Origin: Gyromitra esculenta
Taxonomy: Eukaryota > Ascomycota > Pezizomycetes > Pezizales > Discinaceae
DNA: 64,000 nt
Assembly (NCBI GenBank): GCA_038503075.1
Contig: JBCAML010000002.1
Location: 620,001-684,000, forward strand
Direction of reading: 5' to 3'
Below the pieces are notes generated by a model. The model did not search any database. It saw nothing but the letters and a program-made list of their open reading frames with translations, and was not told where the DNA came from. The position numbers and the translations under genes were made by a program. Each line of letters begins with the position of its first letter. Position 1 is the stretch's first letter. Positions 1 through 25,601 of this stretch are shown here, piece after piece.

Positions 1-1816
1 GTTTGACTCATCATTAGTTCTGGGATACTAGGCTGACTGGGTCTACCACCATGTCATCCTGGGCCTGGATTTCAATGGTGGGTGGTGAGAGTGGGCGGAG
101 GGGGATTTTGGAAGCTCTCTGGCGTTGGGTGTCAAATGCATCTACCTTGATAGGGCATTCTGGTGAAGTGGCTGAGTGCTCATGGCTGTCACAGTTGGAG
201 CATTTGAGGGGTTTGGTTTCGCAGCAGTCAGGCACTGGCTTCGTGTTTCCGCCCTTATCGCAGCCTGGGTTGCTGCAACGATGTTGTTCTCTGGTATGGT
301 GTTCTGCACATAGTGGGCAGGTGGGATGTTTCTGTTTGCAAAGGGGAGCAGTGTGTCCAAAGGTGTAGCAGTTGCGACATTAGGTGATAGGTGAGAAGGA
401 GTGCATCTTTTCGCATTTCCTGGAGCGTGAAAAGAGGCAGATGGAGTCTTTGAGTTTGGCGGCTTCTTCAGGAGCGAGGGAGATGACAACTGAGGTGGTG
501 GCTTTATTTCTGTCGGAGAGGGCGGGTTTGAGGTATCTAGCACCTGCAATGATGATTTCGGATGAGTACTTGATGTTTGCTGCCATGGTGGCAAACAATT
601 CTTCATTGGAGTTTGGGAGAGCGTGAACTGGAAGATTGTGGATAACATATTCCATGTGTGTTGGAGCCAAGATGAAGTCATTGAAGTGGTTATCATCCAC
701 TGGAAGGGCTTTGTTGATTGCTTTGGTGAGGTGGGAGAAGTAAGGAACATAGTCAATTGCAGGTGCGAAGGGTGATGCCAGGATGGAAACAGTGCCGTTG
801 CAGTTGACAGTTGCGGTGAAAGCAAGTGAGACCTTTGCATTAACCTTTTCCAAGGCCTTTGCAATGATGGAGGGGAGGATAGCTGCATGTTGGGAGGAGA
901 GCTCGAATTCTTCTGGGACTGTCCTAGTAGCATAGAATCTGCGTTGCGAGGCAGGGAGTGGTTTGGGTTTGTTGGTTAGAGGAGCTGGTCTGGTTGGCTT
1001 TTGAAGTTGGTTTGCAGGTAGGTTTCTGTTGAATCCAGGGCAGGAACGGGCATCCGTTATCTCTAGCTGCCATCTGGCTGTTTCAGAGGGAGACATCCCT
1101 TCGCTGGTCAAGGGAAGAGCAGGTGGAACGTATGTAACTCCATTGCCTTTCCTTTTCTTATTCACCTTGGGAGGGGAAAGGGAGGAGCTGGCAGTTGCAG
1201 CAATGTTGGTGTAGATTTGGTTGGTTTGAGGGGGTTTGGAGGGTGCAGTGATAGTAGTTTTGGCTGCCCCAGTGGCAGCAAGTTGGTTGATGCCATTGAG
1301 TGCAGTGGTATGCAGTGCGAGGACGGAGGAAATATGGTCTGTGTTGTAAGAGATAATTCTCAGGTGGTTGTTGATAAGCTTGTTCTCCTGAATTAGAACG
1401 AGGCATAGGGTGAGGACGGCTTGAATATCAGACTTTCCTGTAAGGAGGGAAGTGTGAATAGTGTCAAAAAGTTCTGTGTGAGGATGGATTTGTTCGCCAA
1501 TCGCTTCACTGAGATTGCTGGCGACAGCAGAGTAGGGTGAGGGAATAATGGGGGTCAAGTTGGGGGGAGGGAGAGTGATTCTGGGGCTGTTGGCTCTGGA
1601 ATGGTGAGTAGATTGGGGAGGAAGCATACTGCTTCTCATGGGAGTGTGGGGAGTGGGTGCATTGAACTCCGACATCTTCTCAGATCCTAAGCAAGTTGAG
1701 GTGCGGGGTAGTGAAGCCAAATTGTTAAAGACTTTTTGCTGTGTGTAACACTGTTGCAACACAAAAAGTGAAGCTGAAATTTCAATCAGGGATGATGTAG
1801 CTGGGACGGAGGATGG
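1..1816 (-). mobile_element. LINE A, 5' part of a non-LTR retrotransposon
   Basis: This is the 5' end of a non-LTR retrotransposon on the minus strand; its 3' part lies outside the window. The 5' terminus is set at the CCATCCTCCGTCCC motif, which also starts the two LINE copies at 1830-3846 and 19766-21781. The leader shares a further block with them (GTGTTACACACAGC, then AAAAGTCTTTA). A 13-bp spacer (1817-1829) separates it from the poly(A) end of the next LINE copy. No reverse transcriptase is visible inside the window. Confidence 0.75.
14..1675 (-). pseudogene. LINE A ORF1 (gag-like, CCHC knuckles), one in-frame stop
   Basis: ORF1 of a LINE, an RNA-binding nucleocapsid-like protein. I place the start at the ATG at 1675 (MSEFNAPTP), because the codons upstream belong to the leader shared with the other LINE copies. 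The N-terminal two thirds are rich in Pro/Ser/Thr. The C-terminus holds Cys-His knuckles, including C-R-N-C-x4-H-x4-C, C-P-L-C and C-S-N-C-x3-H. A single TAA at 380-382 interrupts the frame just before the first knuckle, and the same frame stays open down to the stop at 14. A CAA-to-TAA change would explain it. Protein sequence differs from the ORF1 of the other two copies, so it is a related but separate family. Confidence 0.75.
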
Positions 1817-1829
1817 CAGCAGTCTACTG

Positions 1830-3846
1830 GTTTTTTGTTTTTTGTTTAAATCATTTGATTATTGTTTCTAGGTACAAAACCGCTTATGCAACAGGAAGGT
1901 TATGAAGTCAAAAAACCTATCCCCACCAAGTAGACACCCTTAACCGCCTGGGTAACAAAAGAGAACACAAAAGAGAAACAAACTAAGTACTTCCAAAAGA
2001 ACAAGATGATGTTCCTGCGATAGAACGACTTAAAGGTGCAGGGAAAGTTGACAGCGTATGTCTATGAGAGTAAAGAGACTTGCAACCAACAACCGAAAAA
2101 ACAATGAGAAACCATAGAGGAAAGTGCATAGTAAAGCCACAAAGGAAGCAGAGAGTAGCCAGAAAAAGTTTTCAATCAAAGTCAGTAGGGGTTGGGAAAG
2201 TATTGGTGAAGCGACCTAAAGGTCCATCTGGTCATCTGCTGGAGGGGGCAGTGAGGCCTTAGAAGGGCGTGATGGGCAGCTGTTCAGGTGTGACTCATGG
2301 GGTCCATCGCAGTTGACACACTTAACAAGAGTGTGAGAGCAAGAACGGCCCTTGATTGAGCAAGTGAGGGTGGGGCAGGTATGAGCTGCAGTGGGATGAA
2401 GTCCAACACACCAGCGACAGCATGGTTGGTTGGGACATTTGTTTGTGTGGTGTCCAAATTTGTGACATTGGGAACACTGGGTGGAGGGACCGAAATGAAG
2501 TTTACATTCAGCTCGGACAGTGGTGGAAAAGGCAGAAAGGCATGTGCAATTAGCGATCTCATTAGCTTTGGGGCCAGAGAGTGTGATGACAATGGAGGAA
2601 ACTGTTTTCCCTCTTCGTTTTTCTGGTGGAGTAAGCCATCTTGGAGGTGTGTCCATAGTGAGTCCGGGGTTGAAGTTGCAGAGCTCTTGCTGAATGGCAG
2701 AGGGCTCCATGGAAGTAGGAATACCATGTACAACAAGTTGGTGCAATGGTTCGTCAAGGTGTAGGGAGCGAGCTCCCGGGATGATGTGGAGAAATTGACC
2801 AACTTTCCGGTAATGGGTGTTGGCAAACATATTGTTCATGACCGTCAACGACACATTCTGGGAATGTGTGTCTATTGCCACAGACTGGATGATGATGGAA
2901 CTGATAGCATAGTTTAGCTTGTCTCTGAGTTCCGTGGGTGTCCCTTAAGTAAGGGGAGTGCCTTTGTGTTTGACAATCAAACGGCGTGCACGCATGGTGG
3001 GAGTGATGGTGAGAGGAGAGACATGAGTCTTAGGGGCAGGTGCAGAGGCAGCCTGTTTGGTCTTTGTTGGTTGGGTTTTTCTCTTGGGTTTGCTGGCCGC
3101 CACCTGAGCCCATTGCAGGGGCTTTGGGGCAGGAGGACGTGCTGGGATAGCAACAGCAGGAGCAGGAGGAAGAGGAGCACTAGGTGCAGGTGGTTCTGAA
3201 GGCGCTGCCTTCCCTACTGTGAGCAGCAGGTGGTCATGCTCTAGTTTGCTCAGAGTCGGAGACTCTGGAAACATGTCTGGGAGAGGTGCAGGAGCTGGTT
3301 TGCTTGCTGCTTCCTTGAGGGTGGTGATTTTGCCTTGTAGATGCTGTATCATGTCAAGGAGTTTTTGGAAGTGGAGGAGGTTGAGCTTGCCGGCTCTGGC
3401 TAGAGCATTGCAAACATCAAACCCAAAAGCTGGCTCACTGCCTAGGTGAGTGGTAATGGCCTCCCCTGGTTTATTCCAGAGGCCTGCCCAGTGGGTTGGC
3501 TTTCTGAACACAGGAGGGGATGGGGGAGAGGTGTCAGCTCTCTGTCTTTTCGATGGTGAGGGGGTTCTTGGATCCGCCGCAGATGAAGAGGAGGAGGCAA
3601 CGAATGGGTTTGGAGTTCCCTCAACTTGGTGATGGGGAAATATGGGTGTAAACATGTTGCTTTTACCTTTGGGAGGCATTGCAACTGTGGGTTGTTGTGT
3701 AAACGATGATCCAGATCGTTTGTGAAAGAGGGGTAATGGAATGAAGCCGAAGTGCTAAAGACTTTTGGCTGTGTTTAATGCCTTTGCAACACAAAAGGTG
3801 GTGGTGAGCTTTCAATCGAAGAGGTTGTAACGGGGACGGAGGATGG
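1830..3846 (-). mobile_element. LINE B copy 1, ORF1-only LINE
   Basis: A roughly 2.0-kb LINE on the minus strand with a 5' leader, ORF1, about 370 nt of 3' UTR and an A-rich tail (T-rich at 1831-1846 on plus). It has no ORF2, so it carries neither endonuclease nor RT and must be non-autonomous. The 5' flank contains ACAATATCCTTGACCC (plus 3846-3861 region), which recurs not at its own 3' end but directly after the poly(A) of the copy at 19766-21781. ORF1 is nearly identical to that copy, while the two UTRs have clearly diverged. Confidence 0.85.
2216..3679 (-). pseudogene. LINE B copy 1 ORF1, in-frame TAA at 2945
   Basis: ORF1 of the ORF1-only LINE. It starts MPPKGKSNMF at 3679, followed by a Pro/Ala-rich region and a basic stretch. 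A TAA at 2945-2947 breaks the frame, after which the same frame runs to 2216. The second half carries zinc knuckles C-S-Q-C-x4-H-x4-C and C-V-N-C-x3-H-x6-C, typical of LINE ORF1/gag RNA-binding proteins. The same stop is present at the matching codon in the copy at 19933-21396. It may therefore predate the duplication, have been spread by gene conversion, or be tolerated as two half-proteins. Confidence 0.8.
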
Positions 3847-4231: not shown

Positions 4232-5664
4232 GCGGTGCAGAAGATATCGAGGTATTCTGTGAGGCAGTAGTTCACAAAGCGTTGAAATGTTCCAGGAGCA
4301 TTGGTTAGGCCAAAAGGCATGACCTGGTTTTCATAGAGACCACAACGCGTGCGGAAGGCCGTCTTCCATTCCTCTCCCTCAGCAATGTGCATCTGGTGGT
4401 ATCCGTCGCGGAGGTCTAGCTTGGTGTACCATTGGGCCTTTGCAAGTCGATCAAGGGTTTCCCGGATAAGGGGGGAGGTATAACGGTCCTTGACGGTAAG
4501 GGCATTTAGGCCTCGATAGTCCACACAGAGCCGTAGGGAGCCGTTAGCTTTTTTAACAAAGAGGACAGGGGATCCGGCTGGGGAAGAGCTGGCGCGAATA
4601 AATCCCTTTTCCAGGTTGTCTTCGATATATTTTTTCAAGACGATCAGCTCCTCTTGGGACATTCCATAAAGGGGTCCGAAAGGGGCGTCCTTTCCTTCTT
4701 GAAGCAGTATTCTGTGGTCATAAGATCGTCGAGGGGGGAGTCCTTGGGCTTTGCTTTTGTCAAACATGTCCAGGAAGTTGTGATATTCTTGTGGGATTCT
4801 GGCTTTCCATTCTTCTTTACTTGTTTTATTATCAATAATTTTATTGATCTCGTAAAGTGACATGGCGTAAGCTTGGGAGGTGCGTTTCCTGGTGAGGGTT
4901 CTAAAGCTTGCAGCTCCAATGAAAGACAGGTTTAGTCTGGGAGGAGCAGGGATCGACAGGGTGGATACGACTGAGGAATAAGGGGCACAATGGGTGGTGC
5001 AGAGTTTAGAGTTAAACTCAATGCGTTTTTGGGCGAAGTGGAGGTGAACATCATGATGGTTCGTCCAGGGGATCCCCAATACAAGTGGGTAATGTCCAAG
5101 TTGGGTTACAAAGCAGGGGATTTTTTCCTGGTGTTGTTGGATAGTCAGGGTGATGTTGGCAATATGAGTGATATCTCCTGAGGCAACGGGGCGGCCATCA
5201 ATGACTTCCAGTTGTCTCAGGTTTTTTAAAAGGGAAAGAGGTACGTTGTGGTGACTCACAAATTCCTTATCAATAAAAGCGAATCCAGAGGCTCCGGTAT
5301 CTAATAGTGCGTGAGTTTTTATGAGTTTATTGCTATGGGAAATGCTACAAGAAATAACAAAATGTTCCCCATCCAATTGATCCTCCACGCACATATCTGA
5401 CAACGAAAAGCCTGAAATTGAGAACGCTGATAAAGGTAAGGAAAAAGGAACTGAAGCAGGGTCACTGGTCGACTTCGGCGAAACTAGTTTAAATCCTTGT
5501 TTGAAGTTCTTGCGGCCTCTAGGGCGAAAAATTGAGGTGGGAGTGGTGGTGGCAGCAGGGAGGAGGCTGGTGGCATACGGGTTGCGGGAGGGGTGGTGAG
5601 AGCTCCTCTCATTGTTGGTTTTTTGGGAGCGGAGGACAGTTGGCATAGGAGTGGTCGGGGGCGG
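4232..5664 (-). pseudogene. Gypsy1 pol, first half: gag tail, protease, N-terminal RT
   Basis: Fragment of a Ty3/Gypsy chromovirus polyprotein. In order it shows the end of gag just after the CCHC knuckle, a retropepsin with L-L-D-T-G-A-S-G, a linker, and the first half of RT (C-V-D-Y-R-G-L-N, K-L-D-L-R-D-G-Y, M-P-F-G-L-T-N-A-P). The reading frame ends abruptly at 4232, where solo LTR a is inserted in the codons just before the YLDD active site. The rest of RT resumes at 21821 on the opposite strand. At 5664 it is joined to Gypsy2, which split the CCHC knuckle. A 1-nt deletion separates the gag and pol frames near the knuckle. Confidence 0.9.
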
Positions 5665-6094
5665 TGTGGGCGGGCGGTAGGGGCGCCCTATCAGTAACCT
5701 TGAGATCTGACATCGCTTCCCTCTTCGCGGCAGGAGGGCGCGTCGACGCGGACTCCCACCAGGTAGGCCTTTCCTAGGGGCGTACCACCAGTGGAGCCTG
5801 CGAGCGACGTGCGGAATTCGCTCAACGGTGGGGGGGGGGCAAAGGCCCCCGAATAGCTCACCAAAGGAGCAGGCCGAGTAATAGTATATATCCGTATATA
5901 GAGTAGAGGGTAGTCTATAGAAAAAATGGTATACAGAATAATAGTGGTATGGTGATGGATGACGTGCAAGAGCCACGCCCCCGCCAAAGATATACATACT
6001 CCCCCACTACCGCCTCGATACCCTAACCCATATCACGTGACAACCCACGTGACATCGCCTCCCTACCACGCCTGCAACCTCGCGCCCCACCACA
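5665..6094 (-). repeat. Gypsy2 3' LTR (430 bp)
   Basis: Direct repeat of the sequence at 17552-18405 once the solo LTR nested there is removed. On the minus strand it starts TGTGGTGGGG and ends CCCGCCCACA. It is uninterrupted in this copy, and the G-run at 5830-5838 marks the site at which the other copy took the nested solo LTR. Confidence 0.92.
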
Positions 6095-6107
6095 ACCCTC
6101 CCCTCCT
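6095..6107 (-). other. Gypsy2 polypurine tract
   Basis: On the minus strand an AGGAGGGGAGGGT purine run directly abuts the 3' LTR. This is the expected position for the plus-strand DNA primer of an LTR retrotransposon. Confidence 0.75.
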
Positions 6108-6310
6108 AGAATTGGCCGTCCCATGGCCAACACCCTACACCCCCCCCCGAAAGACACTACTACCCAAAGGAAACAGCTACCCTTTCCCCACCACTAAGAC
6201 CGAATAAAGAAGCGAGCACTAGCTAACCTAGGAAACATAGAGAAAAACCCCCCTTTGGACCTAATCGATACGACAGAATAATCAAAGGAAAGCCCCCAAG
6301 CAAACACCGC

Positions 6311-9073
6311 CTACTCCCCTACCTTCCGCCGCTTCTCTCCACCCTCCACATTTTCCTCCCCTCCTGGAAGACCCCGTTTGCTAGGACGATCCCCCGGCAT
6401 GGGACCTCCCCCCTCCTTTTCCTCATCGCTCTCGTCGTTCTCCCCTTCCGGCAGGAATGGTGTCACCGAAAAACCGTCCCGAAGGAGGGCCTCCTTTCCC
6501 TCCTGGGTGACCCTCAAAGGCGGCTCCCAGGTGCCTGCATCGCGCGCCTGGAAAAACGAGTCCTTCCCGAAGTCACGTCGCTCGGCCCATTCCTGCACCC
6601 TATACCCCTCCCACATCGCTTCCACCAGCCCCTTCCTAACCTTCTCAATCAACCCCCAAGCCGCCTTCTCGTCCGATCCCAACAGCGTCTCCAACTCCCA
6701 CCGAACCCGCGCCGACTCCCAGTCTACCAGGCCTAGGAGTGCGTCCCCGACTCCCCACACACCTCGTACCTCAGGGGTGCTAGGAAAGCGCCCCACCATA
6801 CGTCTGTGGACATTAGTCTGCCCAGTAGGGTTCTTCGGGAGCACGCCCAAAGATCTGTGCGCCTCGGTGACCTCCGCCCTCGTGCCCACCTGCAGGAACT
6901 CCAGCGCCTCTCCGTCGCCCTGGATCCCTATTGGCCAGCTATTGACCGTCCTGCGTTGAAGGATCGCCTGATCCTTCGGCCCCGCCGTCGATCCATGGAT
7001 GAGGTGTGGAAGTGATATGCGTAGATCTCCCAGCGCACATATGACGTTGGTCTCCCCCCAGAAAGCCTCCACATCCTCCTGCCTGTAGATCTTCGAAGTC
7101 CGTACCGTGGGCCTGTCTTTCGCATTCCCCCGCTGCTCTACCTTCTCCCACCACGCGCGTAGGTTCCTGTGGAAGCCTTCCACGACCGCAGTACACCCTT
7201 CGGGGATCTCCTGATCCAACGACACCGAAGTCTGGATGTGGTCGACACCCATGCCCGAGTCTATAGCCTTCCGGGGGTTCAGGTCTATATGCCTGAAGCT
7301 CGTGTAGTCCCCTGGCAGGGTAAACTTGGCATAGTGAGGAAAGGAAAGCATGCGATACGCCCCATCAGACCTCGCCGCCAGGACCAGGAGATAGTAGACC
7401 AGATCCTGTCTGGCTGCCTGCTGTAGTACCGAATGGTAGCAATTGCGCAGCCACCCCGTCTGATCCGACCGTTGGTGGTGTAGGTAGAGGTCAAACTCTT
7501 CTGACACCTTCTCCATGAGCTTGCCGTCGTCAACCAACCAGCGGAACGCCGGCACCACACAGTTCCCCGTCATGCAGAAGGACTCCCAAGCTTCCACACT
7601 ACTATAGCGACAGAATATAGCCCGCCTGTCGAACGCCGGGAGCGCCCACTCTATAGGCTTATACCGCATAGAGCCCATACCATCCGCCTCCACCTTCGCT
7701 CTCCCACCCTTCCGGAACCAGCTGTATGTCTCGGTGGCGGCATGCATATCCCCGATCGTGTCCCAGCGCTTATAGAGGTATAGCAACCTCTCCGTCATTG
7801 CCGGGCGATTCAGGCGTCTGGTATACAGCCCTACGAGCGACGCCAACCTCTGCAAGTGCTCCCAGCAGAGATTGTCCAGCCCTGCGCCCACACCAGCTTC
7901 CAGAAACTTCCCCTGCTGCACCAGGCCCACCACCTCAGAGATCCGATACCCCCATACTCTCACCAGCCAGCCCTTCTGTAGGTAAGCCCCACACCCACAC
8001 ACCGTTGAAGCCTGTACTTCGTCCACCTCCGCCTCCACCTCCGCCTCCGCCGCCGTCTCTCCACCCGTCTCTCCATCCGCTTCCGACCATAGAGGAGTCC
8101 GCGCCGACACGGACTCCTGGCCCTCTGCGCCACACGCAACTGCTACGCCCTCCTCCAAAAGCCCCGCATCCTGTACCCGCTCCCCCTGCACCTTCCCCTT
8201 CCCCTTCCCCTTCCCCTGCACCTTCCCCTTCACCTTCCCTTTCACCGCCTTCGGCCTGATAGACTCTGGCCAGACCCTAATTAGGTCCTCCTCTAGGACC
8301 TCCTCCTTCGTCGCCTTTCCTTTTTCCGCCTGACCAAGCCATTCGCTCGCGTAGGCCACATCTTTTGGCTGGAAGTGCAGAGCAAGTTGCTTGCCCGAAG
8401 AGCGATCCTGCAGGCGCATCCTATACCCTGCGTCTAGGGCCATCCATGCCTGCTGCATTGACCACCCTGCCCTCGCTATGCTCGCCAGCTTGCGCAAGAA
8501 GTGCTCGGAGAACTGGGTTAGGCGGAACTCGGTGGGATCGAAGCGCTCCTCCCAGTCGGCCCCCCAGCGCTCACATATTGTACTCCGGGAGTTGGCCTTC
8601 CGGCTATCCGTCTGTCGGTACCTGACCCGCGCCGGCGCCACCACGTTCTCATAGTCCACCTCCTTCATGAACGCCTCCTTCCCACCAAAAGCATCCCACA
8701 GGCTCTCCTTTTCTATATAGTCCTCCCATATACGGGAGATGCCCTCGTCTGAAGCTTCTCTGATGTCGGCGAAGGCATCCAGAGCGTTCTTGGCTGCCTC
8801 CGCGCGCGCAGTAGGCTCCGTGTGTGCCGCCATCATCATCTCTATGGTCTTTGCCAAGCCATGTTTCGCCTTTTCCTGCAAGACGTTCTCCCTAGTGATC
8901 TCTACCACCTCGGAGGATGCCCTGACCATGGTTTTCCTGGACAAAGACGGCGAGCTTGATGGGCTCTTAGTAGTGGACTTCCGCTTAGATCTCGACGGGC
9001 TCTTGGTGGTCTGTATCCTACTTGAGCACCTGGGTGTCGAAGGGCCTGCCTCGGGATTCACTGGGGTAAACAT
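6311..9073 (-). CDS. Gypsy2 extra ORF: large protein with a putative 2OG-Fe(II) dioxygenase-like domain
   Basis: An uninterrupted 920-residue ORF with an ATG at 9073, between integrase and the 3' LTR on the same strand. Residues 1-48 are Ser/Pro/Lys/Arg-rich. Residues 50-260 are mostly helical in character, 275-300 are a Lys-Gly repeat, and 330-355 are acidic. Residues about 385-720 are globular and contain the sequence Y-T-S-F-R-H-I-D-L-N (H595, D597), then G-F-H (H635), G-D-L-R-I at 682-686, L-I-H-G-S (H693) and R707/R708. H-x-D ... G-D ... H-G-S ... R is the metal- and 2-oxoglutarate-binding layout of double-stranded beta-helix dioxygenases such as the PhyH and TET/JBP types. The C-terminus is charged (G-E-K-R-R-K-V). 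No signal peptide or membrane segment is seen, so it is not an envelope protein. The enzyme assignment is inferred from motifs only. A structural or host-derived protein without activity remains possible. Confidence 0.6.
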   Translation of the reverse strand: MFTPVNPEAGPSTPRCSSRIQTTKSPSRSKRKSTTKSPSSSPSLSRKTMVRASSEVVEITRENVLQEKAKHGLAKTIEMMMAAHTEPTARAEAAKNALDAFADIREASDEGISRIWEDYIEKESLWDAFGGKEAFMKEVDYENVVAPARVRYRQTDSRKANSRSTICERWGADWEERFDPTEFRLTQFSEHFLRKLASIARAGWSMQQAWMALDAGYRMRLQDRSSGKQLALHFQPKDVAYASEWLGQAEKGKATKEEVLEEDLIRVWPESIRPKAVKGKVKGKVQGKGKGKGKVQGERVQDAGLLEEGVAVACGAEGQESVSARTPLWSEADGETGGETAAEAEVEAEVDEVQASTVCGCGAYLQKGWLVRVWGYRISEVVGLVQQGKFLEAGVGAGLDNLCWEHLQRLASLVGLYTRRLNRPAMTERLLYLYKRWDTIGDMHAATETYSWFRKGGRAKVEADGMGSMRYKPIEWALPAFDRRAIFCRYSSVEAWESFCMTGNCVVPAFRWLVDDGKLMEKVSEEFDLYLHHQRSDQTGWLRNCYHSVLQQAARQDLVYYLLVLAARSDGAYRMLSFPHYAKFTLPGDYTSFRHIDLNPRKAIDSGMGVDHIQTSVSLDQEIPEGCTAVVEGFHRNLRAWWEKVEQRGNAKDRPTVRTSKIYRQEDVEAFWGETNVICALGDLRISLPHLIHGSTAGPKDQAILQRRTVNSWPIGIQGDGEALEFLQVGTRAEVTEAHRSLGVLPKNPTGQTNVHRRMVGRFPSTPEVRGVWGVGDALLGLVDWESARVRWELETLLGSDEKAAWGLIEKVRKGLVEAMWEGYRVQEWAERRDFGKDSFFQARDAGTWEPPLRVTQEGKEALLRDGFSVTPFLPEGENDESDEEKEGGGPMPGDRPSKRGLPGGEENVEGGEKRRKVGE

Positions 9074-9531
9074 GGCGTATATATGCGGCGCACAAACAAA
9101 GAAACTGTCAGAACAAAGAAACGGCCTCCAAAGGGTTATGACGTCACCACGTAGCTGTGGAAGCAGGCGTAGAGCTTATAGGGCTTCGTAGATGTAGGAG
9201 TAGGCGCAAAAGCTGCCGTGTGCGCTTGCTGCTGTCACCTGTATGTATGGTATCCTTTCCTAAGCGTGTAACGGAAGGAAGAAGAAGAAGGAAGCAAAGT
9301 TTGCTTCCCCCTCCCCTCCTTATATAGAGAGGTCGAAGAAGAGGTCATTGCGCTGTGAGGATCTCCCTGCTCGAGCCCTTGCCCTACCGCCGGCATACTC
9401 CGCAGAGCCCCAACCTTAATCCAACGTCCTGCTTCCCACCACCTCAGGTACCGCCCTAAGGCCTCGTCTCCTCCCCCACCTAAAGCCCTCACCTCCTCTC
9501 CTTAAAACCCTACCGCCATGCCCACACCGAG

Positions 9532-9699
9532 CCCATACCAAAAAAGTATAAAGCAACGAATCCATACCAAAAGAAACGACAGAAAGCAACGAGTCTATAC
9601 CAAAAGAAACGACAAAAAGAAACGAGTCTATACCAAAAGAAACGACAGAAAGCAGCGGATCTATACCAAAAGCAAACGACCGAAGGCAGCGAATCCACT
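9532..9699. repeat. Five-unit 33-bp tandem repeat in Gypsy2
   Basis: About five imperfect copies of a unit beginning CYATACCAAAAGAAACGACA. They lie in the 655-bp spacer between the integrase stop and the ATG of the 920-codon ORF. The position suggests a promoter or enhancer for that ORF, but this is inference. Confidence 0.8.
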
Positions 9700-9727
9700 A
9701 TACCCTCCTTACCTCCCCTTCTCCTTC

Positions 9728-11557
9728 CTAAACCTGGACGTAAAACCCCCAATCCTTCTTGGGTTTTACACGCTTACCCCCTACCACCGACCCGCTCTCC
9801 TCCGATCCCCCTCCTTCCGGACCCTCCGCCTCCGCCTCCGCCTCGCCTCCTGCACCTCCGTCCTCTACACCCGACTCCACGCCCGACTCCACATCCAAGA
9901 CCATGGTAGGGTCCCCCGCGCGCTGGAAAAAGCGTTTGACACGATTGGGAGGAACAGTGCCTTCCAGGCGGGTTCCGTCCAGCTCTTCCAGGGTTACAGT
10001 CCCTACAGCAGATATATCCTTGATCCTGAAAGGCCCTTTCCACCTATTCGCGAGCTTGTCACTCCACTGTTTGTCTAGCCTCGTGGTATGGAGCAGGACT
10101 AGGTCACCTATCCGTAGAGCCTGGGAAGCAGGCCTCTTTCTCCTGTTGGCGTCGAAGTACCTCTTATTCTCGGACCTACTCTCCTTCAGCCTAGCTGCCG
10201 CCTCCTCTATATCCTCGTCTCTCATCTCCAGTTGCCGAGCTCGCGCCGCCAATAGATCCCCGGTGGTATGGATATCTCCCCAAACGATGCTGCCCCAGGA
10301 TGCTAACGATACCTCGATAGGCAGGACACACTGCCACCCAAAGACGAGCTCAAATGGGGGCCTCCCTGTGGATCTTCTGACCGTCACCCGATCCGCCCAC
10401 AGCACCGAATGCAGGTGCCTGGGCCAATCTTTGGGCGCCTTGCAGACCTTCTGAAGAGCATCTACCACCTGTTGATGACCACGCTCCACCAGACCGTTCG
10501 CCTGGGGGTGGTAGGCCGACACCACCTTCCTGTCGATCCCATACCGCTCGCAGAGGCGCTCGGTAAAAGCCTTATTTTCTGGGCCCCCGTCCACCACGAT
10601 CTTCTTTGGGCACCCAAAGCGCGAAATCACTTCCTGGTACAGGAAGTCTGCCACTTTCTCCGAGCTACTCTTCGCTAAAGCGCGCCCTTCTACCCACCCA
10701 GAGAAGTCGTCCCTAGCAACCACGAGATACCTTTTCCTGTCGGCCCCCATAGGCATATGCACGATGTCTACACATACCTTCTCAAATAGGGAAGTCGCAA
10801 AGGTAGGGTGCAGCTCGTCTGGATACCTGGCTGATGCTTGTAGCTGGCATTGCTCGCAGGTTCGCACATACTCTTCGACCTCCTTCGCCATGCCGGGCCA
10901 CCAGTACCGCTGGGACGCCTTTTTGTATGTGCCTTCCCTGCCTCTATGGCCCGATTCGTCATGAACGCTCTGCAGGATCTCCTGGCGCTCTGCCCCTCTG
11001 CATATCACTCTCTTCGGGGGCTGATTTTCTCTACCTCGGCGGTATAGGTGGCCTTCCCTGATCAAAAACCTCGTGGCCTCCCGCCGGAAGGCAAGCCTTT
11101 GCTTATCTGACAGGTTCTCCGGCATCGCTAGACTCTCCAGGAACTCTCCGATCTCCTTCCAGCGTCCCGAGTATTCCCCTTCCACTAGGCGCACCCGCAG
11201 GTGTATAGAAGTGCGCGTTGACGCGGACTCCCCCACCCACGCGCGGCCTGCAAACAACTGATCGTCCAAGAACTCCTCTAGGCCTTCCACATCCTCCGCC
11301 TCCGCCTCCGCCACCTCCTCCTCTGTACCCTTCCTTCTCGAGAGCCCGTCGGCCGCTGTGTGCTGTTTGCCAGGGACGTGAACGACGTCAAAGTCAAAGA
11401 GACGTATCCACGCGATCCACCGGGTAACCATGGCGCCAGGAAGGTCGTTGGCAGGCTGGTTAAGCTGGTGTACCAGGGTTCGGGCGTCAATCTCCACCCT
11501 AAAGCGGACCCCATAGAGCCAAAAGCGCATCTTCTTCAGCGCCTTTAGCAGGCCTTT
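9728..11557 (-). pseudogene. Gypsy2 pol, C-terminal part: RNase H end and integrase
   Basis: Frame continues RNase H (I-D-A-R-T-L-V-H-Q-L, then V-P-G-K-x-H-x-A-D-x-L-S-R). The integrase follows, with a zinc-binding HHCC motif (H-D-E-S-G-H ... C-E-Q-C), the catalytic core D-I-V-H, V-V-D-G-G-P-E-N and a glutamate in N-G-L-V-E-R, and a C-terminal G-P-F-R-I (GPY/F module). There is no chromodomain, unlike Gypsy1 and Gypsy3. The frame is open over this stretch but is cut from the rest of RNase H by the 914-bp insertion at 11558. Integrase inserts the cDNA into the host chromosome. Confidence 0.92.
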
Positions 11558-11988
11558 TGTAAGACCGGTACTTCTTACCGCACAGGAAATCTCCAAGAAG
11601 CTTTAGATAACAATCTAGACGCTATAACCTGCCCGGTTGCTATCCACAACACAATACACAGGCGCAAGTCCTAACTGCTTCTTATGAACCGCTAATAGAT
11701 AACCGTAGGGTTCAAAGTAGGGATCGAGCAAAGTTCCGTGAAGAACTTCCAATAGTAAGGTTTTAATAACTAACGCTGAAGGGTCCTTGGCCCTATGTGT
11801 AGTTTGAATATCGCTTGCTTTGCTTGTTGGGTATCGTGTTCGTTCGAATATACTCTTCGTCTAACCAATCTGGAAGGACGAGGTCTGTTGTGGACGCGTC
11901 GTGACTTTGAGGTTCGTGTCGCGTGAAGCAACAACAAAGTCTCTTGAAGAAATAAAGGATTCTTTGCATGAAGAAAGTATTACTTGAA

Positions 11989-12050
11989 GATGAAACGAAC
12001 GCAGGACCTTGAGAGTATGAATGAAAGTCGTATACCGCTAAGCTATACAA
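11989..12050 (-). other. tRNA-like module 2 (A and B boxes)
   Basis: On the minus strand, TAGCTTAGCGG fits an A box and GTTCGTTTC fits a B box, about 34 nt apart, as in a tRNA gene. The arms do not fold into a clean cloverleaf, so it is more likely a tRNA-derived promoter fragment than a working tRNA gene. Confidence 0.4.
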
Positions 12051-12387
12051 TATAATATTGATAAGGCTCGTTCTTCGTCGCTAATGATCAGGAAGAAGAC
12101 CCTTCTCAACGGTAGAACACTGGACTACTTATAGTAGTCAAGCGTCGAATACAAAGGCTATGTAATAACATGAACTAACATGAAGAAATCCCATAGACCC
12201 TGAAACGCTTTCCTTCGCTCCTACCCCTCTCATTATCGTATGGCGTGATTGTCGGAATTAACCGGCAACGCAACGTATAAGCGAATCGGGGAAGTGTCGA
12301 TCGAAAGAGTCGGCCATTGATGACACAAGGAAACCAAACATCCAATCTGAATCTTATTAATAATCAACCAAGATTAATAACTGACAT

Positions 12388-12462
12388 GGTCGGGGATTGA
12401 ACGCTAGTCCATATGTGTGCATCGTAAGCGAACTCAAGTCGTAACCAACTAAGCTACCAATA
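12388..12462 (-). other. tRNA-like module 1 (A and B boxes)
   Basis: On the minus strand TAGCTTAGTTGG (A box, plus 12445-12456) is followed about 42 nt later by GTTCAATCC, an exact match to the B-box consensus (plus 12394-12402). It starts roughly ten bases inside the end of the 914-bp element. The T-stem does not pair, arguing against a functional tRNA. Confidence 0.5.
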
Positions 12463-12471
12463 GGTATAACA

Positions 12472-14171
12472 CCTTTGCACTCCTTCTTCCCCGCGTCATA
12501 CTGCCTCTCTGCAGGCGCCCAAAGCCCACTCTCGTAGCGGCACGGGTGCCTCTTCTCGTCCAGAATCTGCATTAGCACAGCTCCCCAACCTTCTCCGCCC
12601 GCGTCTACCGCCAGAATCAATAGGCCCGCTAGTGGGCCATACCGGGGGGTTATCAAGGCAGGAGCCGAAGTCAGCGCCTTCTTGATTGCCTCCATAGCCT
12701 CCTCCTGATCCTCTCCCCAGCCGAACTCCACGCCTTTCCGCTGCAAAAGGAATAGGGGCGCTGCCAAGATGGCGAAGCCTTTTATCCATATTCTATAGTA
12801 GGTGGCCACCCCTAGGAACGCCCTGACCTCAGTAACTGACTCGCAGGCCGGCCATAGAACGATCTTTTCCACCTTCTTCATGTCAGGAAAGCGACCTTCT
12901 TCCGTACAGACGAACCCCACTATCTTGATCCCCGGCTTGCACCAAGAAGACTTCAACCCTGCTACCGTAGCGCCTGCCCGCTCGTAGTCTGCCAGGACTA
13001 GGTCCAGGTTGACTATATGCTCTTATACGAACCTTCGGATCCCAGGGCTGACTTCCTCGTCGTTGTACCGCGTGGTAGGGCCTTTTACACCGACGTCGTC
13101 GAGAAAGACCCTACAGCGCTCTGGGATATTGTCGTGCTGAGCCTTCGAGTTGATCCTCTGGAAGGCCTGGACGGAGTTGGTACCACCCTGTACCAACCGG
13201 GTATAGCGTAGCAGCCCTAAAGGGGTCTGAATCGCGGTCATATCTCTACTCTCCTCCGCCAGCTCTACCTGATCATACCCCGAAAACAGGTCAATGATCA
13301 ACGAGATTGCCATGCCTGCAAACTCCTCACTAAACTCGTCAACCCTAGGTGGGAGCGCCGCATCCAGTATGGTATAGCTATTGGCTTTGGTGAACGACGT
13401 CACTAGTCTGTGTTGCCCGGCCTGCTTCTTCTTGACCAAAAACCATGGGTTTCTGTCGGCCCCATGCCCGCGCTCCAAGATCCCAGCATCCAACCGCGCC
13501 TTTAGGATGTCAATAACCTCGTTCTCTAGAGCTCTGGGTGTCTTGAACGGCGCCTCCTGCCAGGGCTCATGGGGAACAGTTCGAATGATATGGGGTGGCT
13601 CGACCTCCGGGCGGAACAGCCCAATCTCCGAGAAATCAAACGCTATAGCAGCCTCCCTGTTGTAGAGCATCTCGATCAAAAGCTTACGCTCCATAGGTTG
13701 CAGGTCTCCGGTGTCTAGCTGCTCGATTCTCTCCTTTGTCAAACGAGACCCTCGCTGAATGGTACTAAATTTAGGGGTAAGGATGTGATCGAAGGGCCCG
13801 GGTGGCCCGCTCTCGCCTCTCTCTCGAGCCTAAGCTTCTGCCTGTAGGTGTCTCTTTTTCCAGTCTGGGTCCCCTTCCGCCGCACCCCCATCCCCCCTCA
13901 CTTTCTGCGGGCGAACCTTCTCTCCCTTCCTCTTGTACAGCCTCCGACTAGAGACGCCGCTCCCTAGTGGCAAGAGCTCTCTCCACACCGCCATACACCA
14001 CCTCAACCGCACCTCACTTTCCGCGCCGTGCAGGACTCCGCGTCGACGCGGAATCCCCAACCCGCCTACGCCTCCACACTCCCTGCCACGCACCACACTT
14101 CTCCCTCTCCCTACCACCTCGCACCCCACACCTCCGTCTCCTTGGGGGCTCTCACTCCTCTCAATAGGCAC
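12472..14171 (-). pseudogene. Gypsy2 pol, N-terminal part: linker, RT, start of RNase H
   Basis: Reading down the minus strand there is a basic linker (14171-13830), then RT (F-L-V-K-K-K, D-L-F-S-G-Y-D-Q, V-F-L-D-D-V as the catalytic D-D), the connection, and the RNase H start (A-V-D-A-G-G-E-G-W-G-A-V, Y-D-A-G-K-K-E-C-K). Two in-frame stops are seen: TAG at 13830-13832 and TAA at 13023-13025. The linker is in a different frame from the protease upstream. The 914-bp element then cuts the RNase H. RT copies the element RNA to cDNA. This copy should be inactive. Confidence 0.9.
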
Positions 14172-14179
14172 CCCCGCGC

Positions 14180-15031
14180 CTATTGAGCGTCCCCGTTTCC
14201 CGACCTCGAGCGCCTTCCCTTTCTTTGCCAGGGCCCCCCTTCCGGCGCTTCCCTAACCGAGGTTCTGGCAAACCCCGAGGCAGATACCGCCATGAAGGTC
14301 GCCTTCTTCTTGCGATCCGTTGACCACACTGTGCCCCAAAGAGACCCATCATCTCTATTCTCCCACTGCATCAAAGCGGCCCTCTCGAATGGGCGCCCCA
14401 GAACGAACTCCCCTTCTACATCCGGAGACGCAAATATAGGCGTGTATATGAGAGCTCCCCCTACTTTTACCGGGGCCTCGTGTATACAGCAGGAAAGCGG
14501 AGTCTGGTGCCCAGTAATGCCAGTCATGACCCACTCCACCGAATCGTCATACGGAAGGCCTAGGCTCACGAACTCAGACCACCCCATTCTGTTGATCTCG
14601 GATCCACTATCCCCCGTGGGGTGGAGCTCCACTCCATTAATTGATATGGGTAGCAGGCCCGACTCTGCGGCGTACTCGACTTCTTTTGCCCTCCGAACTC
14701 TGGCTACTCCGGAAGGGGCTCCTGCGGGGGAGGCTCCTGCAGAGGAGGCTCCTACCAAGGCTTGGGAGACCCTTGCTGCAGTGGCGGGCGCTGCCTGGGA
14801 GGCCTTCCCATATAGGTAACGTTTGAAGGACGTGGATATCGACGCTAGCTCTGACAGGCTGACCGTGACGGTCTTCTCTGTCGTCAGCCTGTGGAAGAGC
14901 TCGTCCTCCGGCATGGCCTCTATGATGTCGTTGCGGAAGGCTCTCCTAGGTGCGCCGGGCAGCTTCTCTTCTTGCTTCTTTCTTGGCTTTGGAGAGTCAA
15001 TATCTCTCGACTTCGGTGGGTCTATATCCAT
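14180..15031 (-). CDS. Gypsy2 aspartic protease region
   Basis: A 283-residue open frame following gag in the same frame after one TGA. Around residues 135-215 it shows the retropepsin layout: G-D-S-G-S-E-I (the D-S/T-G active-site motif) and later F-V-L-G-R-P, the usual hydrophobic-L-G motif before the flap partner. It would process the Gag-Pol polyprotein. It ends in a basic tail, and RT follows in another frame, consistent with frameshift or readthrough expression or simply with decay. Confidence 0.75.
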   Translation of the reverse strand: MDIDPPKSRDIDSPKPRKKQEEKLPGAPRRAFRNDIIEAMPEDELFHRLTTEKTVTVSLSELASISTSFKRYLYGKASQAAPATAARVSQALVGASSAGASPAGAPSGVARVRRAKEVEYAAESGLLPISINGVELHPTGDSGSEINRMGWSEFVSLGLPYDDSVEWVMTGITGHQTPLSCCIHEAPVKVGGALIYTPIFASPDVEGEFVLGRPFERAALMQWENRDDGSLWGTVWSTDRKKKATFMAVSASGFARTSVREAPEGGPWQRKGRRSRSGNGDAQ

Positions 15032-15052
15032 AGTCTCGACAGGCGGGTAGGC

Positions 15053-16603
15053 TCAAGGCCTCGGCGTCCTGACATTTGCAATGGCTTCCTGCTGCTCAAC
15101 CTTCTTCCGAAGATCCTCTCTCCTCTCCTTCTTTTCCGCCGGCCGCCTCTTTTCTATACGCGTAGGCTTGACTGTGGACACATACCACCTGTCACCCTCG
15201 CCCACACCCTCCTCTTCATCATTTTCCTCTTCCTCACTCTCCTCCTCATCACTCTCTTCGCTCTCCTCTCCCAGATCCTCTAGCTTAGCCAACCGAACCC
15301 CGAAAGGTGCCTCTCGACTAGGGCTGGGACCCGCCTTAATACGTCGAACCCCTGGCTGCTGCGCCTGAGCCCTCTCCCTGTCCTCAACCCGCCGCAACAT
15401 ATTCTTTCCTCCTTCCCATACGGGCAACTCCGTGCCTCCCGACCCTTCCGTCCCCCAGTGAATCATTCCGACATGGTTCCTATGAATCAAGCCTGCCTGC
15501 TCCTTAGCTAGTAAGGCTGGGCACTGGTGCTTTATGTGACTCGGGTCCAAACAAAAGATACACTGGCGGATAGGCATGACTGTCTGGTTGCCTAGGGGGT
15601 ACTGTGGCGGGCCCGGAGCGCTGCCCCGGAGAGGAATGGCATTCACTCCCGAGGCTGGGCTACCATATACCGGGGCCGGCTGCATGCCTGCCCTGCAGAA
15701 GCCTTCCATAAACTGTGCCTGCTGGCGTAACACCATGGCCTCCATGCTCTTGGTCATCTCTTCCATGGCCGACGAGAAGTCCACCTCCTGTCGCGGCACA
15801 CTCGGGAGCGGCACGTTCGGGAGCGGCACGCCTTCTCTGACCGGGGCACGGGCGCTCGGAAGCGATGACTCCCCATTGGGAGCTACGCTGTCGACATCCT
15901 GTGATAAAAGCTGGTCAATGATACCTTCCGCGGAAAACTCACCTTTCCTTAGCAACTCCTCGGTCTGGAGGTTGCCCAGACAGTAATCCTGCGCCTCTGC
16001 CTTCAGCGTGGCGAACTTCCCATGGAAGGAAGAGGGCACCTTCACATCCAGCTTATGCTTAACGATCAGCTTCCTAGCAAGATCTTTCTGTAGGGCCCCT
16101 AGGAATAGCTGGATCTCTTGGTACTCAGAGACCATGCCCGTGCTCTTCAGGGAGGTAGACACCGTCGAAAAGGCCCGTACAAACGAGCGAATGTCGCCTG
16201 ACTTCTTCTTCTGCGCCGCTGTTAGCTCTTCTAGGAAGCTTACCGTGTAAATGTGCTGCTTCGTGTCATGCGCCCTATATTCCTCCAGAACCTCTTCCTT
16301 GACCTTTTCCCAATCGCCATCCACATAGCCTTGAAGGTAGCGGATCGTTCCCCCTACCGCTCCAGCGCAGTACAAAGGAAGCTTCTTGACGGCAGACTTC
16401 TCCTGCTCACCATACTCACGGAAGAGGAGCTCGTAGTGTTCCAGGAAATCCGTGGCGTCCTTCCCATCGAAGTACGGGGCCCCCTGGGAGCCCGGGAGTG
16501 GCATATGAGCGAGGTGCCTGCGGAGGCCTTCCAGGACTCCTTCGGCAGAGCCTGGGGCGGCGAGCGCTCCTATGCTGGGTGCTGTTTTCTGGCTTCCGGA
16601 CAT
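15053..16603 (-). CDS. Gypsy2 Gag
   Basis: An open frame of 516 residues with an ATG at 16603. The central capsid-like part (about 40-230) contains Y-F-D-G-K-D-A-T-D-F-L-E and L-P-L-Y-C, similar to the retrotransposon Gag domain. A CCHC nucleocapsid knuckle (C-I-F-C-x4-H-x4-C) lies near residue 360. The C-terminus has a strongly acidic Glu/Asp stretch and a basic tail. It ends at TGA (15053-15055), with the protease continuing in the same frame, so readthrough is possible. Gag forms the virus-like particle and packages the RNA. Confidence 0.88.
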   Translation of the reverse strand: MSGSQKTAPSIGALAAPGSAEGVLEGLRRHLAHMPLPGSQGAPYFDGKDATDFLEHYELLFREYGEQEKSAVKKLPLYCAGAVGGTIRYLQGYVDGDWEKVKEEVLEEYRAHDTKQHIYTVSFLEELTAAQKKKSGDIRSFVRAFSTVSTSLKSTGMVSEYQEIQLFLGALQKDLARKLIVKHKLDVKVPSSFHGKFATLKAEAQDYCLGNLQTEELLRKGEFSAEGIIDQLLSQDVDSVAPNGESSLPSARAPVREGVPLPNVPLPSVPRQEVDFSSAMEEMTKSMEAMVLRQQAQFMEGFCRAGMQPAPVYGSPASGVNAIPLRGSAPGPPQYPLGNQTVMPIRQCIFCLDPSHIKHQCPALLAKEQAGLIHRNHVGMIHWGTEGSGGTELPVWEGGKNMLRRVEDRERAQAQQPGVRRIKAGPSPSREAPFGVRLAKLEDLGEESEESDEEESEEEENDEEEGVGEGDRWYVSTVKPTRIEKRRPAEKKERREDLRKKVEQQEAIANVRTPRP

Positions 16604-16759
16604 TGTGAGTGGTTTCGGTAGTCGAGCGGCCTGACGTGTATGAGATTGCTTGCGATTCTGTCATGTGATGTGTGCGTGTCGGGGAGAGAGGGAAATGGAT
16701 GCCCCCGAAGCCCCCCTTTTTCAGGGCTCCCACTCCCCACCGTAGAAAGACTTTGCTCC

Positions 16760-16921
16760 GCCAGACGGGGAAAGCTCTGCCCTTAGGCCGGAAAACTCTG
16801 CCCGCTAGTCAGGGAAAACTCTGCTCGTTAGTCGGGGAAAACTCTGCCCGCTAGTCAGGGAAAACTCTGCCCGCTAGGCAGGGAATGCTCTGCTCGTTAG
16901 TCAGGGAAAACTCTGCTCGGG
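16760..16921. repeat. 22-23 bp tandem array in the Gypsy2 leader
   Basis: About seven imperfect units of the type GGGAAAACTCTGCCCGCTAG lie between the gag ATG and the second array. It is in the untranslated leader of the element RNA. Confidence 0.85.
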
Positions 16922-16946
16922 CTCCAGCTGCCTATTCAGCTCAACC

Positions 16947-17465
16947 CGCCTGTATCGAAAGAGGGGCCACGACGACGCCTCCTGTCTATATCGAAAGAGG
17001 GGCCACGACGGCGCCTCTTGTCCGTATCGAAGAAGGGCACGATGGCACCTCCTGTCTGTATCGAAGGTGGTGTGCCGCGAAGGCTCCTACCTGTCTGTAT
17101 CGAAAGAGGGCACGACGGCGCCTCCTGTCTGTATTGAAGGCGGTGTGCCGTGAAGGCTCCTACCTGTCCGTATCGAAGGCGGTGTGCCGCAAAAGCTCCT
17201 ACCTGTCCGAAGGAGGTGGGCCGCGAAGGCATCTCCTGTCCGAAGGAGGTGGGCCACGAAGGCATCTCCTGTCTGTATCGAAAGAGGGGCCACGATGGCG
17301 CCTCTTGTCCGTATCGAAGAAGGGCACGATGGCACCTCCTGTCTGTATCGAAAGCGGTGTGCCGCAAAGGCTCCTACCTGTCTGTATCGAAAGAGGGCAC
17401 GACGGCGCCTCCTGTCTGTCTGTATCGAAGGCAGGATGCCACGGAGGCTCCTACCTGTCTGTATA
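16947..17465. repeat. Long tandem array in the Gypsy2 leader
   Basis: About eleven imperfect units of roughly 45-60 bp, each built from CTGTCTGTATCGAAAG, GGCCACGA and GGCGCCTC blocks. Units lacking the TATCGAA block (CCTGTCCGAAGGAGG) form a subgroup at 17208-17270. Several reading frames stay open merely because of the repeat, and I do not call them genes. Confidence 0.85.
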
Positions 17466-17532
17466 GTATCCTTCACATGCGTTATCTTTACCACCACCTC
17501 CCTCTCCTCCACGAAGAGGCCTCAGTCAATCT

Positions 17533-17550
17533 CTCTGGTCGAAGGGACCA
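17533..17550 (-). other. Gypsy2 primer-binding site
   Basis: On the minus strand TGGTCCCTTCGACCAGAG begins one base after the end of the 5' LTR. The leading TGG pairs with the CCA of a tRNA 3' end, so a tRNA primer is likely. I cannot name the tRNA from memory with confidence. Confidence 0.65.
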
Positions 17551-17551
17551 T

Positions 17552-18405
17552 TGTGGGCGGGCGGTAGGGGCGCCCTATCAGTAACCTTGAGATCTGACAT
17601 CGCTTCCCTCTTCGCGGCAGAAGAGCACATCGACGCGGACTCCCACCAGGTAGGCCTTTCCTAGGGGCGTACCACCAGTGAAGCCTGCAAGCAACATGCG
17701 AAACTCGCTCAGCGGTGGGGGGGTCTCACGGTTTGATCCCTCGTTAAGCCCTTCAGTATCCCTGAAGGTGAGCAGTGCTACTTAAGCGAGAGGCCAAGCG
17801 ACACGAGTCACGATGTTTCTACAGGTCCTACGAGGGTCTAACTCAAGGTGAGTTAAGTGCAAGGGTTTTCACAGCGACGGCGACAGTGGAGATCCTGAGG
17901 TAGAATCGTGGTCGTATTAAAGTAATACAGTAGAAGTAAAGTGAGAACGTTGCTTAAGGGAAGAAAGAGAAGAAGACACAAGCGAAGAAAATCCATCTCT
18001 TAAATACCCCGCTTTTCAACCATTATGACTCATAGCTAAAAATAACCAAAGACAAACGAAACACAAAGACATTATAACCTTTAACCGAAACCACAATCCC
18101 TTACTAAATCCTTGACCCGATTAATCCTTTGTATCCGTGAAAGGGGGGGGCAAAGGCCCCCGAATAGCTCACCAAAGGAGCAGGCCGAGTAATAGTATAT
18201 ATCCGTATATAGAGTAGAGGGTAGTATATAGAAAAAATGGTATACAGAATAATAGTGGTATGGTGATGGATGACGTGCAAGAGCCACGCCCCCGCCAAAG
18301 ATATACATACTCCCCCACTACCGCCTCGATACCCTAACCCATATCACGTGACAACCCACGTGACATCGCCTCCCTACCACGCCTGCAACCTCGCGCCCCA
18401 CCACA
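17552..18405 (-). repeat. Gypsy2 5' LTR, split by solo LTR b
   Basis: The same 430-bp LTR as at 5665-6094, interrupted in its G-run by the insertion at 17724-18142. It differs from the 3' LTR at several C/T and G/A positions in the left portion (for example GAGGGCGCG versus GAAGAGCACA), suggesting age or mutation of this copy. Confidence 0.9.
17724..18142 (-). repeat. Solo LTR b in the Gypsy2 5' LTR
   Basis: A 419-bp solo LTR of the Gypsy1 LTR family, TCTCACGG to CCGTGAAA on plus. It is flanked by a GGGGG duplication (ambiguous in length because it sits in a G-run). It contains the conserved stem-loop at 17740-17790 and the AACGTTGCTTAAG block. Confidence 0.88.
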
Positions 18406-23848: not shown

Positions 23849-24267
23849 TCTCACGGTTCAGTATCTCGTTAAGCCCTTCAGTATCCCTGAAGGTGAGCAG
23901 TGCTACTTAAGCGAGATGCTAACTCGTTTGAAGAGTGCAGTGTTTCTACAAGTTCTACGGGAGGTATACTTCAAGGCGAAGTATCGACGATGGTTCACAG
24001 CGACAGCGAAGGTTCTGAGGTAGAACCGAGATTGTATTGCAATAGACACAGGAGAAGGTAAACGAGAACGTTGCTTAAGGAAAGAAAGAAGAAGAGAAGA
24101 CCACAGCGACCGAAATCCTTCACTTAAATACCCTGCTTTCCCGTAACACAAACAACACCCTAACAATAACCGAAAAACAACCGAACAACAAAGCCATTAT
24201 ATCCCGACGACCCTTCGTTACTACCAACGACTTCTTCTTAACCCATTACCCAGTTTCATCCGTGAAA
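23849..24267 (-). repeat. Solo LTR c in Gypsy1 integrase
   Basis: A 419-bp LTR of the Gypsy1 family with a perfect duplication GCAAT (23844-23848 and 24268-24272). Ends are TCTCACGG and CCGTGAAA on plus. It carries the terminal stem-loop at 23865-23915 and the TATTTAAG box on the minus strand. Confidence 0.93.
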
Positions 24268-25192: not shown

Positions 25193-25601
25193 TCTCAGGG
25201 AGTGGGTTTCTTGTCAAGCTCTCGAGTATCCCTCGAGATGAGCAGTGCTACTTGAATGGGAAACCAACAGCGAGAATATGTACGAAGATTCTACAGGCTC
25301 TACAATAGTTTTAAGTCGTGTTGACTTGAAGACGGCGACAGCGAAGGATTACGAGGTGTAGCCGAGGTTTGTATTGTGAACTACAAGAGTGAACAATAGA
25401 AGACGTTGCTTAAAGAAAGAAGAAGAAAAAGTACAACAAGAGGGGAAATCCCTTCGCTTATATACTCATAATCCATCTCTTTTGATGACGAATGTATGAC
25501 TCATTGTAAAGGAAACCAAGGAAAACATATCAAAGGAACAACAAAGCAACACGACTAACACCTGTGCCACTAACCAAACAACACGACGACCATCCATGAA
25601 A
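25193..25601 (-). repeat. Gypsy3 3' LTR
   Basis: TCTCAGGG to CCATGAAA on plus, almost identical to 31003-31411. The ends are TTTCATGG..CCCTGAGA in the element's own orientation, so they do not follow the TG..CA rule. Confidence 0.95.

Follow-up and report, generated by a model that had tools for sequence, protein, structure and literature searches.

A predicted PhyH/DUF1479-like oxygenase encoded by the third open reading frame of a fungal Ty3/Gypsy-type retrotransposon

Why would a retrotransposon copy whose pol gene is interrupted by stop codons retain a long, intact additional open reading frame (ORF)? This question is raised by a 64,000-nucleotide stretch of the Gyromitra esculenta genome (contig JBCAML010000002.1, positions 620,001 to 684,000; hereafter 'the window'), in which the minus strand of positions 5665–18405 constitutes one Ty3/Gypsy-type element with long terminal repeats (LTRs) and a third ORF between integrase and the 3′ LTR (Table 1). 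By prediction, this ORF encodes a two-part protein, in which a helical N-terminal domain with a CxC...CxxH motif is followed by a C-terminal PhyH/DUF1479-like Fe(II)/2-oxoglutarate (2OG) oxygenase domain.

The third ORF and its predicted product

The third ORF runs for 920 codons from an ATG at 9073 to a stop codon at 6311 with no internal stops, a run whose chance probability is ~1.5e-16 given the base composition of the ORF itself. The first-pass annotation of this DNA had described an intact ORF of this length in this place, which we confirm and assign to the minus strand, and had read its product as a 2OG-Fe(II) oxygenase from residues H595, D597, G682-D683, H693-G694-S695, R707 and R708, all of which carry those numbers in the translated protein. 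That reading is now supported by the predicted fold, by a conserved HxD...H...R site and by remote PhyH matches in homologues. An AF2 model and its structural matches indicate a double-stranded beta-helix (DSBH), and the top structural rows, which are the closest folds, are PhyH/DUF1479-type structures. Only the DSBH aligns with the PhyH/DUF1479 oxygenases YbiU (4rgk), YPO2976 (7twe) and GIG2 (6akz), at 12–14% identity, whereas the N-terminal domain and the CxC...CxxH motif fall outside the aligned part. Giant-virus and phage PhyH proteins also occur among the structural matches, a similarity at the level of fold only; in viral contigs, 83 stretches fitted a pattern for relatives and none was confirmed.

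A homologue search with all 920 residues returned nothing at E ≤ 0.001 among 7986 candidates scored, probably because the list of candidates had filled up with low-complexity words, and this null result does not confer orphan status. Residues 400–780 gave 10 matches and a seven-row alignment gave 63, with one common to both, for a total of 72. HxD is present in 70/72 alignment rows, and the complete HxD...H site plus the 2OG-binding basic residue in 67 of the 70 rows that have no gap at these four positions, the window protein included. The PhyH profile PF05721 matches 29 of the 72 rows at E ≤ 0.1 (best 1.6e-10), although not the window protein itself, and seven of ten homologues scanned singly exceed the curated PF05721 cut-off. 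At the same threshold, neither the AlkB profile PF13532 nor the Tet_JBP profile matches any of the 72 rows, and we ruled out both identities on these profiles. The TET/JBP type raised by the first-pass annotation is therefore not supported, and the top structural rows are likewise of PhyH/DUF1479 type.

The CxC...CxxH pattern, a possible zinc site, recurs in 30 of 34 proteins of at least 700 residues (window included), compared with 5 of 1700 shuffles, and the protein also has a basic KGKGKGK linker. Elsewhere in the genome, a 389-residue open frame at C1:4187981–4188655 matches the N-terminal part only (22% identity; pairwise E 6e-7), suggesting that this domain may exist apart from the oxygenase. 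The window protein alone found no meaningful chain among PDB sequences, and profile searches of the PDB returned only weak matches, vinculin over part of the N-terminal region (best E 0.043) and a designed bundle (E 4.7), both of which we take as chance matches.

In a FastTree phylogeny of 70 domains, from which gaps excluded the other two of the 72, the window sequence groups with those of Discina (Maublancomyces) gigas (Q9L58_008678) and Peziza echinospora (DFH27DRAFT_637468), both Pezizomycetes, with support of 1.0. This grouping points to a probable Pezizomycete host, although mobile genes are poor indicators of where they reside. Other named homologues come from Xylona heveae (L228DRAFT_215835; Xylonomycetes), Coleophoma crateriformis (BP5796_08162; Leotiomycetes), Penicillium nucicola (N7511_005185; Eurotiomycetes), Clathrospora and Polyplosphaeria (Dothideomycetes) and a Chaetothyriales species; one from a Sphagnum balticum record is probably fungal contamination. 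Most of the 72 are metagenome proteins. Many of the 33 homologues with at least 700 residues lie on metagenome contigs, which suggests that the genes are intronless.

Recurrence and constraint among element copies

Is the ORF part of the element or a chance neighbor? Our search of the 47.1-Mb genome listed at least 23 matches, which group into nine substantial places, two small fragments, one distant N-terminal relative and one chance-level match (C4). The nine places are the window, two each on C15, C10 and C12, and one each on C18 and C1. All nine lie within 10 kb of LTR, integrase, reverse transcriptase (RT) or gag sequence of this Gypsy family, and where integrase or the 3′ LTR was found, the ORF follows the former or precedes the latter. 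For example, one C10 place retains, in this order, LTR, gag, RT, integrase and ORF, and the C1 place retains integrase, ORF and 3′ LTR. The minus-strand C12 place has integrase and ORF; the C18 place has LTR, gag, RT and ORF, with integrase not among the matches listed; and the C15 pair, the plus-strand C12 place and the second C10 place each have ORF and 3′ LTR. The C15 pair (C15:878264–892682) consists of two truncated copies, inverted and ~8 kb apart, which may reflect a single event. As for the fragments, gag pieces lie near C23:884712, and none near C1:4108420 among the matches listed. The extra ORF therefore belongs to the element, rather than being missing from all other copies, the outcome that the first-pass annotation had regarded as refuting its proposal. 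Moreover, a nested unrelated gene is ruled out because the ORF recurs in the same slot.

The ORF is also under purifying selection, with a constraint similar to that of integrase. The first-pass annotation had proposed comparing nonsynonymous with synonymous divergence (dN/dS) across copies. When the window frame is paired with each copy by counting (Nei-Gojobori), dN/dS is 0.13–0.31 at dS 0.50–0.74 for pieces of at least 150 codons, reaches 0.38 for shorter pieces and falls to 0.08–0.18 within residues 480–770; these estimates are not independent, as every pair includes the window sequence and there is overlap between some loci, and dN is inflated by decay in the copies. For integrase, dN/dS is 0.15–0.30 (three copies, four pieces).

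Upstream of the ATG, a 94-bp non-coding block is 90–91% identical to three other copies, compared with 66–76% for the rest of the interval between integrase and ORF, in comparisons that all use the window as reference. A box within the block reads TATATAA in the window and C10 copies and TACATAA in the C12 and C15 copies, and is followed by a CT-rich tract. A 111-bp query over the block matched at six genomic sites: five are at element copies, and the sixth, a weaker match, is on C23. This arrangement suggests a putative RNA polymerase II (Pol II) core promoter internal to the element. A search for splice acceptors upstream of the ATG, using a simple pattern, gave no match.

Possible roles of the oxygenase and related systems

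Our best reading of the third ORF, with a probability of about 0.5, is that its product is an active oxygenase and reverses a silencing mark. The protein would be expressed from its own internal promoter, and its N-terminal part and basic linker would tether it to nucleic acid or chromatin. There, the oxygenase could oxidize a methyl group, on nucleic acid or on protein, by which the host silences the element; the class of substrate is a guess. Removal of the mark would then favor transcription of the element. The genome contains six matches to C5-methylase sequence at four places, one with stops, and a single Tet_JBP match (C17:1015945–1016316), which has four in-frame stops and is probably a dead TET/JBP gene. 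These sequences make DNA methylation plausible as a target.

Several observations weigh against this reading. The frame is completely open only in the window copy, one of the nine places, and an element copy at C15:936520–947842 has LTR, gag, RT and integrase (the match ends at residue 600) and no match to the ORF. Conservation of H595, D597 and H693, on which the first-pass annotation had staked its case, holds across homologues, but some sequences have lost site residues: the decayed copies of the C15 pair, C18 and C1 no longer have R707, and the C1 copy also lacks H595; the close Discina gigas homologue has Q and N in place of HxD; and homologues P0049 and P0055 have each lost one site residue. 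The window protein alone matches no Pfam domain, the N-terminal domain has no clear match among solved structures in the PDB, and linkage of the ORF to gag-pol is known from this genome only. Finally, solved PhyH/DUF1479 relatives act mostly on small molecules, as the names in our structural match list agree, and the fold therefore does not imply a nucleic-acid substrate.

Because the fold points there as readily, a serious if clearly less probable alternative is an active 2OG oxygenase that acts on a protein (for example a histone, a ribosomal protein or Gag) or on a small molecule, and helps the element in some way other than clearing nucleic acid or chromatin of silencing marks. The PDB relatives of the fold are amino-acid, ectoine, antibiotic and natural-product oxygenases, and the lack of AlkB and TET profile matches is consistent with such a target. 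By contrast, the large N-terminal domain, the CxC...CxxH motif and the basic linker are a better fit for macromolecular targeting than for a small-molecule enzyme, albeit indirectly.

It is unlikely that a host gene was caught by accident, through retro-transduction, and now travels as a useless passenger. Most copies are broken, and the family also takes in named fungal proteins, known here from protein sequence alone, as a passenger origin might have it; but dN/dS is well below 1 at substantial dS, as for integrase, the ORF sits beside element parts in 9/9 substantial places, and a conserved block precedes it. Marginally less likely again is a catalytically dead DSBH that serves as a binding or structural module. 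The structural matches do include a chain of the trypanosome RNA-editing complex (8fni) that is not labeled as an enzyme, and the Discina homologue lacks HxD, but this alternative must contend with a full metal and 2OG site in almost every row and, for an envelope-like role, with the lack of any strongly hydrophobic 19-residue stretch in the 920-residue protein (Kyte-Doolittle maximum 0.99). Together with the oxygenase fold, the latter result rules out an envelope-like third ORF, as the first-pass annotation had concluded. Least probable of all is a divergent member of the TET/JBP enzymes, similar to the PE type carried by Pezizomycete Helitrons and IS3EU, for which the host class is probably the same and the genome has its one interrupted Tet_JBP match, but which is opposed by the profile counts, by the HxE of the PE type (PMC12730594) as against HxD here, and by the lack of TET structures among the best 50 structural rows listed, an absence that amounts to no exclusion.

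More broadly, and with greater reserve than for the protein or small-molecule target, one might see the whole family as a counter-silencing system that retrotransposons of filamentous fungi have carried for a long time. Mobile elements would then have captured a third independent class of oxygenase, in addition to AlkB and TET/JBP; this one would have its own promoter, a new targeting domain and, as substrate, a mark on nucleic acid or chromatin on which this fold is not yet known to act.

Several published systems are related. Ty3/Gypsy elements of Phalaenopsis orchids carry an ORF for an AlkB-type 2-oxoglutarate-dependent dioxygenase with m6A demethylase activity in vitro (PMC9289625). These elements resemble ours in having an extra 2OG-Fe(II) oxygenase ORF in a Gypsy-type element with a proposed counter-silencing role, but their enzyme is from a plant, belongs to PF13532 and is homologous to plant RNA demethylases, whereas ours is fungal, PhyH/DUF1479-like and joined to another N-terminal domain. 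Because of this precedent, the claim of the first-pass annotation that such cargo is new in an LTR retrotransposon was too strong, although we found no report for fungi or for this oxygenase class. Fungal DNA transposons and Helitrons, including those of Pezizomycetes, carry TET/JBP enzymes (Kojima 2025, PMC12730594), which are likewise 2OG oxygenases borne by fungal mobile elements with a proposed anti-silencing role, but are of another family. LTR elements of bdelloid rotifers have an enzymatic ORF3 encoding a DEDDy exonuclease or GDSL esterase (PMC5408684), and are thus similar in having a third ORF with an enzyme and different in enzyme and animal host. Fungal Gypsy elements with a dUTPase or an uncharacterized additional ORF are also known, in a survey that places a Ylt1-like lineage apart from chromodomain elements (PMC2864245); this extra coding capacity could in part be the oxygenase gene described here. 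The word 'dioxygenase' occurs nowhere in the text of that survey, nor was it found in the available part of 'LTR Retrotransposons in Fungi' (PMC3248453). Our literature search, which covered open-licence papers and so does not establish absence in print, found no fungal LTR retrotransposon reported to carry a dioxygenase.

As far as these searches show, what is new is the class of the oxygenase, its presence in an LTR element of a fungus and the putative promoter. The oxygenase of this fungal retrotransposon differs in class from those above and has been preserved by selection, with a conserved putative promoter. If it acts on silencing marks, unrelated elements would have captured oxygenases convergently, and the enzyme, which can be tested directly, might have as its substrate a modified base or protein not yet known.

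Structure and state of the window copy

The window copy has LTRs, gag, protease, a polypurine tract and the RT, RNase H, integrase order of Ty3/Gypsy elements. Its gag and protease were called from motifs read by eye, with no Pfam match above cut-off, and its integrase ORF contains no Pfam chromodomain at E ≤ 1.

Table 1 Features of the element in window coordinates.
Feature	Position	Strand	Remarks
5′ LTR	17552–18405	−	Interrupted by insert at 17724–18142
Possible primer-binding site (TGG...)	17536–17550	−	One base inside 5′ LTR; suggested by position only
gag-like ORF	15053–16660	−	CX2CX4HX4C zinc knuckle; by eye, no Pfam match
Aspartic protease region	14180–15052	−	DSGSE motif, by eye; Pfam Asp_protease_2 E 0.095, under cut-off
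Reverse transcriptase	13023–13829	−	Pfam RVT_1 1.1e-8
RNase H region of pol	12357–13022	−	Pfam RT_RNaseH_2 3.4e-16
Integrase (H2C2 zinc + rve) and end of RNase H region	9731–11602	−	Pfam; rve E 2.1e-12
Conserved non-coding block	9267–9360	−	TATATAA at 9320–9326 plus CT-rich tract; ~250 bp upstream of ATG
Third ORF, 920-residue 2OG-Fe(II) oxygenase-like protein	6311–9073	−	Between integrase and 3′ LTR
N-terminal helical domain	8240–8893	−	Residues ~61–278
C-x-C...C-x-x-H motif	7856–7999	−	Residues 359–406; possible zinc site
Predicted DSBH oxygenase domain	6722–7624	−	Residues ~484–784; AF2 model, structural matches, conservation
Site codons	H595 7289–7291; D597 7283–7285; H693 6995–6997; R707 6953–6955	−	
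Polypurine tract	6095–6107	−	Adjoins 3′ LTR edge; read by eye
3′ LTR	5665–6094	−	TG...CA ends
Flanking 4-bp repeat GCGG	5661–5664 and 18406–18409		Both sides of LTRs

The two in-frame pol stops of the first-pass annotation were located at 13832 and 13025, and the frame closes with a third stop at 12359, where pol is broken from 12357 to 11602. One part of the LTR pair is identical at 262 of 263 positions, and the other (5665–5836 versus 17552–17723) at 161 of 172. In nine of the 11 differences in the latter part, the 3′ LTR has G and the 5′ LTR has A on the plus strand, a strand-biased cluster that is like the product of repeat-induced point mutation (RIP) or a deaminase.

The insert in the 5′ LTR is a repeated element of no assigned class, with relatives at 23849–23922 and 25194–25267 and in the C15 copies, where a relative with 81% identity lies inside both ORFs. 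Tandem repeats with 23-bp and 34/39/73-bp units occupy 16745–17464, in the leader between the 5′ LTR and gag, and an array of 33-bp repeats lies between integrase and the third ORF at 9550–9695. Outside the element, window positions 1–3754 contain minus-strand ORFs, of which 2216–2944 has cysteine motifs, read by eye, like those of non-LTR retrotransposon ORF1; a similar stretch adjoins the C15 copy.
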